From: Gemmatimonadota bacterium
GTDB lineage: Bacteria; JBHIER01; G020348925
Reading direction: 5' to 3'
NCBI GenBank assembly: GCA_020348925.1
Contig: CP070758.1
Span: forward strand, 1,251,317 to 1,294,164
DNA: 42,848 nucleotides
The notes beneath the pieces are model-generated. The model had not been told where the DNA came from, did no database searches, and saw only the letters and a list, made by a program, of their open reading frames with translations. This document shows, piece by piece, positions 12,995 through 16,788 of the stretch. Made by a program: the position numbers and the translations under genes. The stretch's first letter is position 1. The number at the start of each line of letters is the position of its first letter.

Positions 12995-13023
12995 TTGACT
13001 CTCTTGGGAGAGAGTGTTATTTT
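12995..13023 (+). promoter_or_regulatory. Candidate promoter of the nikR operon
   Basis: TTGACT at 12995-13000 and TATTTT at 13018-13023 are separated by 17 bases. The -10 lies over the left half of the NikR-type dyad, so a bound repressor would block it. To the left, 12731-12994 shows no gene or other signal. Confidence 0.4.
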
Positions 13024-13040
13024 TTTGGAAAAGGTAACAC
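13014..13040. promoter_or_regulatory. NikR operator (GTGTTAT-N13-GTAACAC)
   Basis: GTGTTAT at 13014-13020 and GTAACAC at 13034-13040 form an inverted repeat with a 13-base spacer and a single mismatch. From memory, comparative genomics gives GTGTTAC-N13/14-GTAACAC as the NikR site of deltaproteobacteria and other groups, which this matches in sequence and spacing. It lies ~77 bp before the nikR start and overlaps the likely promoter. The prediction is autoregulated repression of the three-gene operon when nickel is sufficient. Confidence 0.75.
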
Positions 13041-13116
13041 TATATGGCGGAGTGAAAAGTGGACGGAGAGGAACGTTTCGTTGGAAAACATACATTGTGT
13101 GAACGTGGAGGCTACT

Positions 13117-13536
13117 ATGGGTCAGGTGACGAGATTCGGCGTTTCGATGGATGCGACTCTTTTGAAGAAGTTCGACGCGTTTATTCATCGGCGAGAGTAT
13201 GCTAAGCGTTCCGAGGCTATTCGGGATCTTGTACGTAGTGCGCTTATTCGAGAAGAATGGAATACAAAAGATTCAGAGGTCGTCGGAACAATTACCATCA
13301 TCTACGATCACCACGTCCGGGGATTGCAGGAAACGCTCACTGAGCTCCAGCACGGGAGCCAGAAGTCGGTTCTTTCGACCATGCATATTCATTTGGATGC
13401 GCACAATTGCCTCGAAGTGTTGGCCGTCCGAGGGAAGGTCGGAGATATTCAAAACATTGCGGATCGATTGATCAGTCTGAAAGGGGTGAAGCACGGTAAG
13501 CTCGTCGCAACATCCACGGGAAAGGATTTGGCCTAA
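13117..13536 (+). CDS. nikR: Nickel-responsive transcriptional regulator NikR
   Basis: 139 residues from the ATG at 13117, behind GTGGAGGCT. Residues 1-50 form the ribbon-helix-helix DNA-binding domain (TRFGVSMDATLLKKFDAFI, KRSEAIRDLVRSALI). The rest is the ACT-like nickel domain. His79, His90, His92 and Cys98 keep the spacing of the square-planar nickel site of E. coli NikR (His76, His87, His89, Cys95), with THIS signature visible as MHIHLDAHNCLEVL. The length equals the family norm. A matching operator lies upstream. Nickel-bound NikR should repress this operon, whose second and third genes follow within 3 and 10 bases. Confidence 0.95.
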   Translation: MGQVTRFGVSMDATLLKKFDAFIHRREYAKRSEAIRDLVRSALIREEWNTKDSEVVGTITIIYDHHVRGLQETLTELQHGSQKSVLSTMHIHLDAHNCLEVLAVRGKVGDIQNIADRLISLKGVKHGKLVATSTGKDLA

Positions 13537-13539
13537 AGT

Positions 13540-14046
13540 ATGATGTTCAGCACCCGACAGATTGTCCTGGCGGCACTTTTCTGTGCTTTCGGAATTCTTT
13601 TTCCGTTCCTTTTTCATTTCATCGCCCTGGGCTCAGTCTTTCTTCCCATGTTTCTTCCCATACTCATTGTTGGGTTTTTAGTAGATCTGCCATTGGCATT
13701 CGTGGTCGGAGTCATGACCCCGATCATATCCTCTGTAACTACAGGTATGCCGCCTTTCTCGCCACCCATCGCTCCCCTCATGGCGATTGAGGGCGCAGTG
13801 CTTGCAGGCACTGCATCGATCCTGTACAGAAAAATTCATCTCAATATATGGATGACGATGATTGTTGCCATTGCAGGTGAAAGGTTTGTACTTTTTGTTG
13901 CAGCTTTTTTCTTCGCTCCCGTGCTTGGCATTCCCGGGGAAGTTCTCTCACTTGTTTCGGTCGTCAAGGGTTTTCCAGGTGTTCTTATGCTCCTGATTGT
14001 CACGCCGATTGTTGTGAAAAAGGTTGAAAACATGTTGTCCATTTAA
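13540..14046 (+). CDS. ECF transporter S component (substrate-binding membrane subunit), predicted nickel-linked
   Basis: 168 residues with five to six membrane segments, starting 3 bases after nikR. The pattern TRQIVLAALFCAFGILFPFL, SVFLPMFLPILIVGFLVDLP, then GMPPFSPPIAPLMAIEGAVL is that of ECF-type S components (ECF_trnsprt fold), which capture a vitamin or metal and work with a shared EcfA/EcfT energising module. No EcfA or EcfT gene is in the window, so a general module elsewhere is assumed. It does not look like NikM/CbiM, which start with a conserved His-containing N-terminus. Position behind nikR and its operator suggests uptake of nickel or a nickel chelate; the substrate is inference. 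Confidence 0.82.
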   Translation: MMFSTRQIVLAALFCAFGILFPFLFHFIALGSVFLPMFLPILIVGFLVDLPLAFVVGVMTPIISSVTTGMPPFSPPIAPLMAIEGAVLAGTASILYRKIHLNIWMTMIVAIAGERFVLFVAAFFFAPVLGIPGEVLSLVSVVKGFPGVLMLLIVTPIVVKKVENMLSI

Positions 14047-14056
14047 AAAGAGAATA

Positions 14057-14650
14057 ATGACCTCAATTCAACACAGACAATACTTTAACGAACGCGCTGA
14101 GAGCTGGGATCGGACATCAGCGGGATCCGAGCGCCTTTCCGAAGTTGTTTCACGGTGCGGTTTGCAATCAGGGCAGCGGGTTATTGACATCGGCTGCGGG
14201 ACCGGGACCCTCATCCCTCATATCAAAAATTGTGTCGGAAAAGAAGGTACCGTGTACGCTCTTGATTTTGCCGAAGAGATGCTCAGAGTTTTAAAAACCG
14301 ATACGGAGTTGTCGTCTGTCATACTCATCTGTGCAGATATTGTAAAAATTCCTGTATGTGATCATTTCTTTGATCATGTTCTATGCTTCGCAACCTTCCC
14401 TCATTTCAATGACAAACGTGCGGCTCTGTCGGAGATGCGTAGAATCTTAAAAACGGGTGGCAAAATGACGATTGCCCACCTCATGGGCAGCCGGGAGATG
14501 AACCAATTTCATGGCCGCGCTGGGGGAGTGGTGCAGCATGATTATCTTCCACATGGGGAGGAGATGAAAGAGCTCTTGAGGCGATCACATTTCTCGGAAA
14601 TCAACGTTGTCGATGAGCCAAACCTCTATCTGGCACAGGGCGTGAAATAA
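14057..14650 (+). CDS. Class I SAM-dependent methyltransferase in the nikR operon
   Basis: 197 residues. The ATG at 14057 is chosen because it begins the family-like YFNERAESWD region; an upstream ATG at 14024 would overlap the S component gene. Motif I is VIDIGCGTGTLIPHI, followed by VYALDFAEEML, the acidic loop ICADIVKIPVCDHFFD and post-motif RRILKTGGKMTIAHLMG. The C-terminal part (NQFHGRAGGVVQHDYLP, His-rich) is shared with a UbiE-like subset. The acceptor is unknown. As the third gene of a nickel-regulated operon it might modify a metallophore or tetrapyrrole, but that is speculation. Confidence 0.85.
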   Translation: MTSIQHRQYFNERAESWDRTSAGSERLSEVVSRCGLQSGQRVIDIGCGTGTLIPHIKNCVGKEGTVYALDFAEEMLRVLKTDTELSSVILICADIVKIPVCDHFFDHVLCFATFPHFNDKRAALSEMRRILKTGGKMTIAHLMGSREMNQFHGRAGGVVQHDYLPHGEEMKELLRRSHFSEINVVDEPNLYLAQGVK

Positions 14651-14752: not shown

Positions 14753-15898
14753 TTAATAATCGTTTGACAGAAGATGCAGGTTGCCGATGTGGACCCTTTT
14801 CAGGCCGGCATCTATGGCTGCCTGCTGACATTCCTCGGCGTGTTTGAGCGAGGTCGTGGGAAGGTCAGGCATGTAGAAGTGAGGATAAAAGGCCAACAGG
14901 GAATAGGGAATTTCCGGATCACATGAAGCTATGAATTGCGCGATGCTTCTCACTTCTCTGGCATCGATATATCCCGGAACCAAAAGGGTGCTGGCGATCA
15001 AAAGGGGCGGATCCGGTCTCTGTGCCATCTGCTCCGCAACCCATCTGAAATTTTTTAGTGTCTGCTTATTCGAGACTCCACACAGGGCTTTGTTAAGGTT
15101 CTCGTTGTGAGCTTTCAGGTCGAATTTGATACATCCTCCAGAATGCAGTGACAGGTCGAGCATTTTTTGCAATAGCCCCGGATTCATGCTGCCGTTCGTC
15201 TCCCAACAGATTCTGAGAATGCGGTCACTATTTCGATTCAAGGCAGTCTTCGAGGCCTGTAAAGCATGGAAAAGTTGGGGTGTGGGATCGCCGCCGAAGT
15301 AGCATACACACGCGGTACGACGGTCCACCGAATTGGCTAGCTCCTGTGCAGTCCGATACCGCGGCGATGACCTTCGCTCCCGAAATTGCCAGTTTTGACA
15401 GTAGAGACAATCGAAGGTACAGGCTTCGTAAAAGACTGCAAGATTGAAATATCCTAACTCAGGCCCTTTCTCGTATGAGAAATCGGGATACCCGGCGTTG
15501 CTCCCGGCAGGGCATACCCAACTGGCCACGCAATTTGTGGGCAACGGATCGTGGTACCAGGAAACTTTGCCCTTGTCGTGGGTACCACCGAGATGGATCA
15601 GTTTTTCAGCTTGATTCGTGCGGAGGCCGCAGTAGCCTAAAGAACTTTCCTTCATTCGGCATCGATTCGCGCAGAGGGTACATTCGACACCACCCTCATC
15701 GCAGGGAGGTTCCGCCGGAAGATCAAATCCATGTCTGCTCTGGACATGGGCCTGCCGAATAAAGGCTTGAGTTGAACCTATATTATTTCGAAAGCAGTCC
15801 CCACAAACCTTGAGAACTTCTGAGATGAGTCGACTGTTTTGACCACAGAGGGCACACTGTACTTCGGGAAGATTTCCTCTATTACCGAAAAAAGTCAT
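14753..15898 (-). CDS. AmrS-like radical SAM protein (PflA-like) with N-terminal zinc ribbons
   Basis: 381 residues from the ATG at 15898, preceded by TAGGTGAT. Two Cys clusters open the protein (CALC...CGDC at 15-35 and CTLCANRC...C at 73-90), resembling metal-binding knuckles. The radical SAM motif is CTFDCLYC (Cys160, 164, 167) followed by QNW. Downstream are YFGGDPTP, RICWETNGSM, IKFDLKAHNE and TLLVPGYID, as in the AmrS/pyruvate formate-lyase-activase-like family. These enzymes reduce SAM with a 4Fe-4S cluster to make a radical; the substrate is not known. Its partner gene ends 11 bases upstream on the same strand. AmrA and AmrB are not nearby. Confidence 0.88.
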   Translation of the reverse strand: MTFFGNRGNLPEVQCALCGQNSRLISEVLKVCGDCFRNNIGSTQAFIRQAHVQSRHGFDLPAEPPCDEGGVECTLCANRCRMKESSLGYCGLRTNQAEKLIHLGGTHDKGKVSWYHDPLPTNCVASWVCPAGSNAGYPDFSYEKGPELGYFNLAVFYEACTFDCLYCQNWQFRERRSSPRYRTAQELANSVDRRTACVCYFGGDPTPQLFHALQASKTALNRNSDRILRICWETNGSMNPGLLQKMLDLSLHSGGCIKFDLKAHNENLNKALCGVSNKQTLKNFRWVAEQMAQRPDPPLLIASTLLVPGYIDAREVRSIAQFIASCDPEIPYSLLAFYPHFYMPDLPTTSLKHAEECQQAAIDAGLKRVHIGNLHLLSNDY

Positions 15899-15909
15899 GA
15901 ATGTATCAC

Positions 15910-16788
15910 CTACCGCAATGTTTGCTGATCGATAACACCGAAGAAATATTTCAAACAATCTGCAAGATTTTTCACTAAGTCGGGTTTGCTGTTGATGATC
16001 ATAATATTACCAGGTACGAGAAATATTCGGCCGTAGATTCTTTTCACCAGCTTTTTCCTCTTTTTAAATACCGGATATTTTGCCATCAGTCCCCAGCGGA
16101 ACATCTTGGTGATCTTATCCTCCATCCTCAGATGGGTATCGACCAGATAGATGGCCAAGTTGGGTTTGAGATCCTCCAGTCTCCCCAGAAACTCGTCAAT
16201 CGTCTCCTGATGAATGTTTTTGGGTGGCGACGACTTTGTCTCGAGGTAGACCAGTTTCTGCTCGACCCGGGCGATGACGTCATAGTCACCTCCCAGATGT
16301 GTATTTAACACTTTCACGCCCCAAGAAGCGATGGAGCAGAATTCCCGTCGAAAGATCTGAGCCACGAGCCACTCCAGAGTTCCTCCGAAGCTGTCAAGGT
16401 TTTTCTTTGATACGGTATATCGTTGAGCCGTTTTTTTTGTAATAATGCCACTCTTAATCAGAAACGTGAGATACTCTTCCACCTTCTCGGCACTGCAGTA
16501 ATGGAGCAAGTCGTCCTTCTCAAATCCGTCCTTGTACTTGATTATGTCACGCAGCACGATGCGGAAGGAGTATCTTTTCAGAAGCTCGTAATACTCGTCG
16601 ATTGTTTTTGACCTGGGTCGTGATGGATACAAAAGATTATCCGTGGGGCAGTCATTCCCAAAGGTGAAACCCCGCCGGCGCAATGTATCGCCTATGGTGA
16701 TCTCCCGAGCTTCTGCAAGAGCCTTTAGGCGTGTTACTTCCTTTTTCAATTTTTGAATTTCGCTCTGTGTATCTCTTGACGTGTCCAT
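15910..16788 (-). CDS. Coiled-coil, winged-helix and PD-(D/E)XK nuclease-like protein
   Basis: 292 residues from the ATG at 16788 (an in-frame TTG lies 15 bases upstream). Residues ~8-35 are a coiled coil (EIQKLKKEVTRLKALAEA). Around 60-135 a helical, winged-helix-like region is suggested (DLLHYCSAEKVEEYLTFLI, GIITKKTAQRYTVSKKN). Residues ~139-185 carry the order Glu (GTLEWLVAQIF), Asp (GGDYDVIARV) and Glu-x-Lys (YLETKSS), the layout of the PD-(D/E)XK nuclease fold. Catalysis is not proven. It overlaps nothing and is followed 11 bases later by the AmrS-like gene, so the pair is probably one operon. No exact family was recognised. Confidence 0.65.
   Translation of the reverse strand: MDTSRDTQSEIQKLKKEVTRLKALAEAREITIGDTLRRRGFTFGNDCPTDNLLYPSRPRSKTIDEYYELLKRYSFRIVLRDIIKYKDGFEKDDLLHYCSAEKVEEYLTFLIKSGIITKKTAQRYTVSKKNLDSFGGTLEWLVAQIFRREFCSIASWGVKVLNTHLGGDYDVIARVEQKLVYLETKSSPPKNIHQETIDEFLGRLEDLKPNLAIYLVDTHLRMEDKITKMFRWGLMAKYPVFKKRKKLVKRIYGRIFLVPGNIMIINSKPDLVKNLADCLKYFFGVIDQQTLR

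Follow-up and report, generated by a model that had tools for sequence, protein, structure and literature searches.

The window, by which we mean the whole 42,848-nucleotide stretch of DNA analysed, carries a compact operon of three genes preceded by a likely promoter and a predicted operator (Table 1). Its products are a nickel-responsive repressor (NikR), an ECF S component and a class I SAM methyltransferase. The genes are spaced as the earlier note had read them, with the S gene beginning 3 bp past nikR and the methyltransferase 10 bp after the S stop codon. Convergent with the operon is a gene (14753-15958, minus strand) for a radical SAM protein resembling an AmmeMemoRadiSam enzyme, which scores 70 bits against a cut-off of 220.

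Table 1. Features of the nikR operon; positions are those of the window
Feature	Position	Strand	Remarks
Likely -35 box, TTGACT	12995-13000	+	Read from sequence; 17 bp from -10 box
Predicted NikR operator, GTGTTAT-N13-GTAACAC, GTGTTATTTTTTTGGAAAAGGTAACAC	13014-13040	.	Dyad; motif recurs in relatives
Likely -10 box, TATTTT	13018-13023	+	Read from sequence; overlaps first operator half
nikR, nickel-responsive repressor, 139 aa	13117-13536	+	NF003381, 206 bits (cut-off 105); PF08753, 112 bits
ECF S component, 168 aa, proposed to confer specificity for nickel or a nickel chelate	13540-14046	+	PF12822, 37 bits (against 30.7)
Class I SAM methyltransferase, 197 aa	14057-14650	+	Methyltransf_11, 74 bits; H116, H141 and H152 invariant

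The window protein matches both the NikR profile and the C-terminal nickel-binding domain. All four nickel ligands (H79, H90, H92 and C98) are present, as the earlier note had observed, at the canonical spacing, which we take to be that of E. coli H76/H87/H89/C95. The nikR frame can be extended upstream to 12982; because the operator and promoter lie 5′ of 13117, this latter start is the sensible one. The dyad overlaps the likely promoter as previously described, its first half-site sitting on the -10 box, and a similar overlap is seen 5′ of nikR in the related loci L007, L012 and L013.

The delta-proteobacterial NikR site was given by Rodionov et al. (2004) as GTGTTAC-N13/14-GTAACAC, and that of D. 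vulgaris nikMQO was listed as GTGTTAt-N13-GTAACAC (PMC545781); the window dyad is identical to the latter, letter for letter. An everted form of the site, GTAACAC-N13-GTGTTAC, is also described in that work. In a pattern scan the window dyad is the sole zero-mismatch match in the 5.04 Mb genome, and its half-site score of 14/14 was reached by none of 5973 shuffled 370-bp windows. Mismatch-tolerant scans for further NikR sites in this genome gave background counts, below those of the reversed-pattern control, and we therefore claim no additional regulon members from them.

The S component matches PF12822, as do all 12 relatives tested, one of which also gave a weak match to PF07155. Its AlphaFold2 model (pLDDT 89) has the S-component fold, with TM scores of 0.70 to TmRibU and 0.68 to ThiT; fold alignments with the solved vitamin S components show approximately 14-23% identity. 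The window protein matches no NCBIfam family and, at E 1, no PDB sequence, which leaves vitamin specificity (RibU, BioY, FolT, ThiT) unsupported by sequence; a place in a clade with an established non-metal ligand, which the earlier note had raised as a concern, is thus not indicated. Its statement that NikM/CbiM features are lacking also holds: none of 12 family members matches CbiM of Pfam at E 0.1, and the N-terminal metal-binding motif MHI is absent from the window protein, which starts MMFSTRQ. The protein is accordingly not assigned to the group I nickel S components. Within the family, His26 is conserved in all 48 relatives that cover the position, Met37 and Met70 in 50/50 and Glu84 in 49/50; a TGMP motif is also kept. 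The group II vitamin transporters (RibU, ThiT, BioY, FolT) share with this system the S-component fold, a separate common EcfAT module and the location of ecfT by truA; the present family differs in its control by NikR, its conserved His26 and LPM/TGMP motifs and its low identity to the vitamin proteins.

The methyltransferase model (AlphaFold2, pLDDT 94) shows a standard class I fold. No NCBIfam cut-off for a known class I equivalog (BioC, UbiE, ArsM, DVU_1556) is passed, the best scores being 74/185 for BioC and 69/155 for DVU_1556. H116, H141 and H152 (127, 152 and 163 when numbered from an upstream start) are kept in 42 of 42 methyltransferases. The top profile matches among solved structures are phosphoethanolamine N-methyltransferases, and the fold matches include N-methyltransferases, a possible histamine N-methyltransferase among them, and the CysG(N-16)/BelI group, whose PDB titles mention histidine mutants and a metal-free form. 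The likeness to this last group lies in the overall fold, at approximately 17% identity, and not in an active-site superposition; CysG(N-16) and BelI also belong to a different setting, that of natural-product synthesis. In 15 genomes the intact methyltransferases adjoining an S gene scored above 210 bits and each unlinked match below 98 bits, with a profile that was built from the S-linked members, so that the scores indicate the absence of unlinked close relatives and are not independent.

When 84,980 species genomes were scanned for relatives of the S component, 15 loci were found. The window genome is the only one of its phylum in this set; a second survey used the phylum of L013 (n = 82 genomes). 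The gene order nikR-TonB-dependent receptor-S-methyltransferase is found in L004, L007 and L013, while the contig of L012 ends within the methyltransferase; in L004 (Aminicenantes) nikR, receptor, S, methyltransferase, ecfT and ecfA form one run. Since this order is conserved in the phylum of L013, Aminicenantes and other MAGs, we consider nikR-TonB receptor-S-methyltransferase to be the ancestral unit. The S family occurs in 44 of the 82 surveyed genomes. After correction for contig ends, the methyltransferase lies 3′ of S in 35/41 cases, the receptor 5′ in 34/37 and nikR in 25/37, all three being present in 21/34; these counts are partly non-independent, as profiles A1 and A2 include members of the surveyed phylum. 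An operator stands near the start of 24 of the 32 nikR genes (window and relatives) at a half-site score of at least 12/14, and of 20 at 13/14 or better, scores attained by 1.6% and 0.13% of shuffled windows, respectively. The association of S component and methyltransferase with nikR and its operator, on which the earlier note had made its reading depend, is thus strongly evident in other genomes.

The association has exceptions. The methyltransferase is missing beside S in L108, L117, L118, L120, L130 and L131, and the receptor at some S loci. Divergence of the S component correlates with that of the methyltransferase (r 0.76) and of the receptor (r 0.77), values as high being found in 0/2000 permutations; such a correlation is expected of genes that travel together, and would equally arise from a common species history. 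At loci without nikR, the operator often stands before the receptor gene instead (L110, L112, L119, L125). Upstream of the TonB receptors of L051, L004, L007, L092, L094, L095, L121, L122, L124 and others we observed NikR-type half-sites in inverted, direct and everted arrangement, at the common 13-base spacing in 15/40 receptor genes as against 0.85% of shuffled windows. Everted sites have been described before; for the direct repeats we found no description. The NikR proteins of L100, L101, L102, L108 and L116, which form one clade, and that of L120 have H92 and C98 replaced (Q/S or Y/S) and H79 mostly lost, with operator and operon kept. In these two lineages the nickel site appears to have been lost independently, and the repressors concerned may sense a different metal. 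Two of these loci, L108 and L120, are also among those that have no methyltransferase.

The fourth core gene of the ancestral unit is present in the window genome, outside the earlier note's view. The TonB receptor ortholog lies at 1,093,194-1,095,050, 170 kb from the operon, and scores 806 bits, with the second-best protein at 144. Just 5′ of it (L051, 8983-9087) is a remnant of nikR of approximately 35 codons, which shares 54% identity with the beginning of the L094 NikR (E 4e-9) and is closer to the NikR of L094 and L007 than to that of the window. Two everted NikR sites, GTAATAT-N13-GTGTTAC and GTAGCAC-N13-GTGTTAC, also precede the receptor. From the distant receptor, the remnant and these sites, the ancestral operon appears to have been split in two, the live nikR being that of the window operon. 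Divergent from the receptor, on the minus strand (L051, 8172-8801), is a weakly methyltransferase-like ORF with no NCBIfam match, which we do not claim as part of the system. The nearest solved structure to the receptor is BtuB; among relatives, the L004 receptor scored 134 bits against the B12-receptor equivalog cut-off of 600, and the family is not identified as a BtuB B12 receptor.

Unlinked ecfT and ecfA genes, which the earlier note had suggested should be sought, are both present. The only EcfT of the genome (156 bits) is encoded beside truA. For EcfA, the top match is a fusion of two ATPases that exceeds the NCBIfam ECF_ATPase_1 and ECF_ATPase_2 cut-offs. This EcfA1-EcfA2 fusion lies end to end with larB and larC in one operon following a tRNA-dihydrouridine synthase gene (L145, 7537-11218, minus strand), an arrangement that would link the ECF motor to synthesis of the nickel-pincer cofactor. 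Of the nickel-related proteins searched for, LarC (488 bits) and two LarA-family proteins were found; no NiFe hydrogenase large subunit was detected at E 0.001, and we reject such an enzyme as the destination of the nickel here. The second LarA-family protein (L135, 8686-9966; 83 bits to Lar_N) is encoded inside a cluster of sugar-acid and TRAP-transporter genes, which suggests a nickel-pincer epimerase of sugar acids.

Nickel genes also adjoin the operon in relatives. In L110, L122, L125 and L126 larE and larB are found 3′ of the methyltransferase, with larC in three of these (the L122 contig ends first); in L008, L011 and L117 the S gene has hypA and hypB as neighbours, and a gene for a NiFe hydrogenase large subunit is present in L011 as well. 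These identities derive from NCBIfam for L125 and L011 and from sequence clustering for the others.

Taken together, we consider it likely that the operon specifies a NikR-repressed TonB-ECF importer of nickel or a nickel chelate whose S family is distinct from NikM/CbiM. The earlier note's proposal of a new importer of this kind is supported by the co-occurrence with nikR and the operator, the lack of a vitamin link and the lar and hyp neighbours. That nickel is the cargo we infer from the regulation and the neighbouring genes; the direction of transport, the repression and the role of the methyltransferase are inferred as well. Nickel, probably in chelated form, would cross the outer membrane through the TonB-dependent receptor, which is unlinked here; in the inner membrane the S component of PF12822 would bind this cargo and, together with the shared EcfT and EcfA, import it at the expense of ATP. 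NikR would sense nickel in the cytoplasm and switch the promoter off by occupying its -10 box, and the nickel-pincer cofactor (LarB, LarC, LarA family) would be at least one destination of the imported metal. Import of cobalt, cobalamin or another corrinoid, with nickel control being incidental, is improbable. The receptor family does match BtuB structures best, though far below the B12-receptor cut-off, and canonical nickel ligands are missing in two NikR lineages; against this stand the NikR operator, the lar and hyp neighbours, and the absence of a cobalamin riboswitch or any other Rfam match in eight loci.

The methyltransferase would be a cytoplasmic partner in uptake. Because its family occurs next to lar genes at some loci and hyp genes at others, we regard it as tied to the uptake operon, serving uptake and not one particular nickel enzyme, and action on a single nickel cofactor, one of two roles suggested in the earlier note, becomes less likely; the other, action on a metallophore, is plausible. 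As a receptor, an S component and an enzyme together recall systems in which a chelate is imported and its ligand then modified, we tentatively favour methylation of the imported ligand, by which nickel would be released and the ligand left unable to rebind it. The fuller picture, of an ECF system that imports a metal complex and not the free ion and whose three-histidine methyltransferase methylates the ligand to release the nickel, is possible and rather doubtful. It is somewhat unlikely that the enzyme instead makes the chelator, by methylating an ordinary metabolite, such as an amine or imidazole, to a nickel-binding product that is released and re-imported via the receptor and S component. 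The phosphoethanolamine N-methyltransferase, CysG(N-16)/BelI and possible histamine N-methyltransferase matches and the three invariant histidines fit such synthesis; however, several S loci have no methyltransferase, and the operon neighbourhoods show no recurrent gene for an exporter or for a further biosynthetic step. A role in maturing or modifying a nickel enzyme or cofactor such as the nickel-pincer nucleotide, linked to transport through shared regulation only, we hold to be unlikely. The lar genes directly 3′ of the methyltransferase in four loci are what this role would predict, but the family is also found by the hyp and NiFe hydrogenase genes of L011, most loci have neither, and in the 15 genomes tested close relatives stand solely beside the S gene.

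The system resembles NikMNQO/CbiMNQO in its ECF architecture and in NikR control through GTGTTAC-N13/14-GTAACAC, including the everted form (PMC545781). It differs in that S belongs to PF12822, no N, K or L subunit is seen, a TonB receptor and methyltransferase are coupled to it, and EcfT and EcfA are usually unlinked. FrpB4, FecA3 and CntO have been named as nickel transporters (PMC11247825) and are, like the present receptor, TonB-dependent and apparently under nickel control; the receptor described here is of BtuB-like size (~620 aa), forms its own sequence family and is paired with an ECF S component. We found no prior description of the operon in the open literature, which is no proof of novelty.

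Within the open literature searched, the only S components known for nickel ECF importers are of the NikM/CbiM type. The operon points to a second nickel S family in KSB1/Calditrichota-type and other little-studied bacteria, one that the NikM/CbiM profile does not match and that is linked with an outer-membrane receptor. Two uncharacterised protein families thereby gain a concrete, testable role in nickel uptake, in an operon type found in several phyla and split in its window copy. For the methyltransferase family with its three invariant histidines, the nickel context allows the substrate to be sought directly. The genome further suggests that a lineage with no detected NiFe hydrogenase could still supply the nickel-pincer cofactor with nickel.
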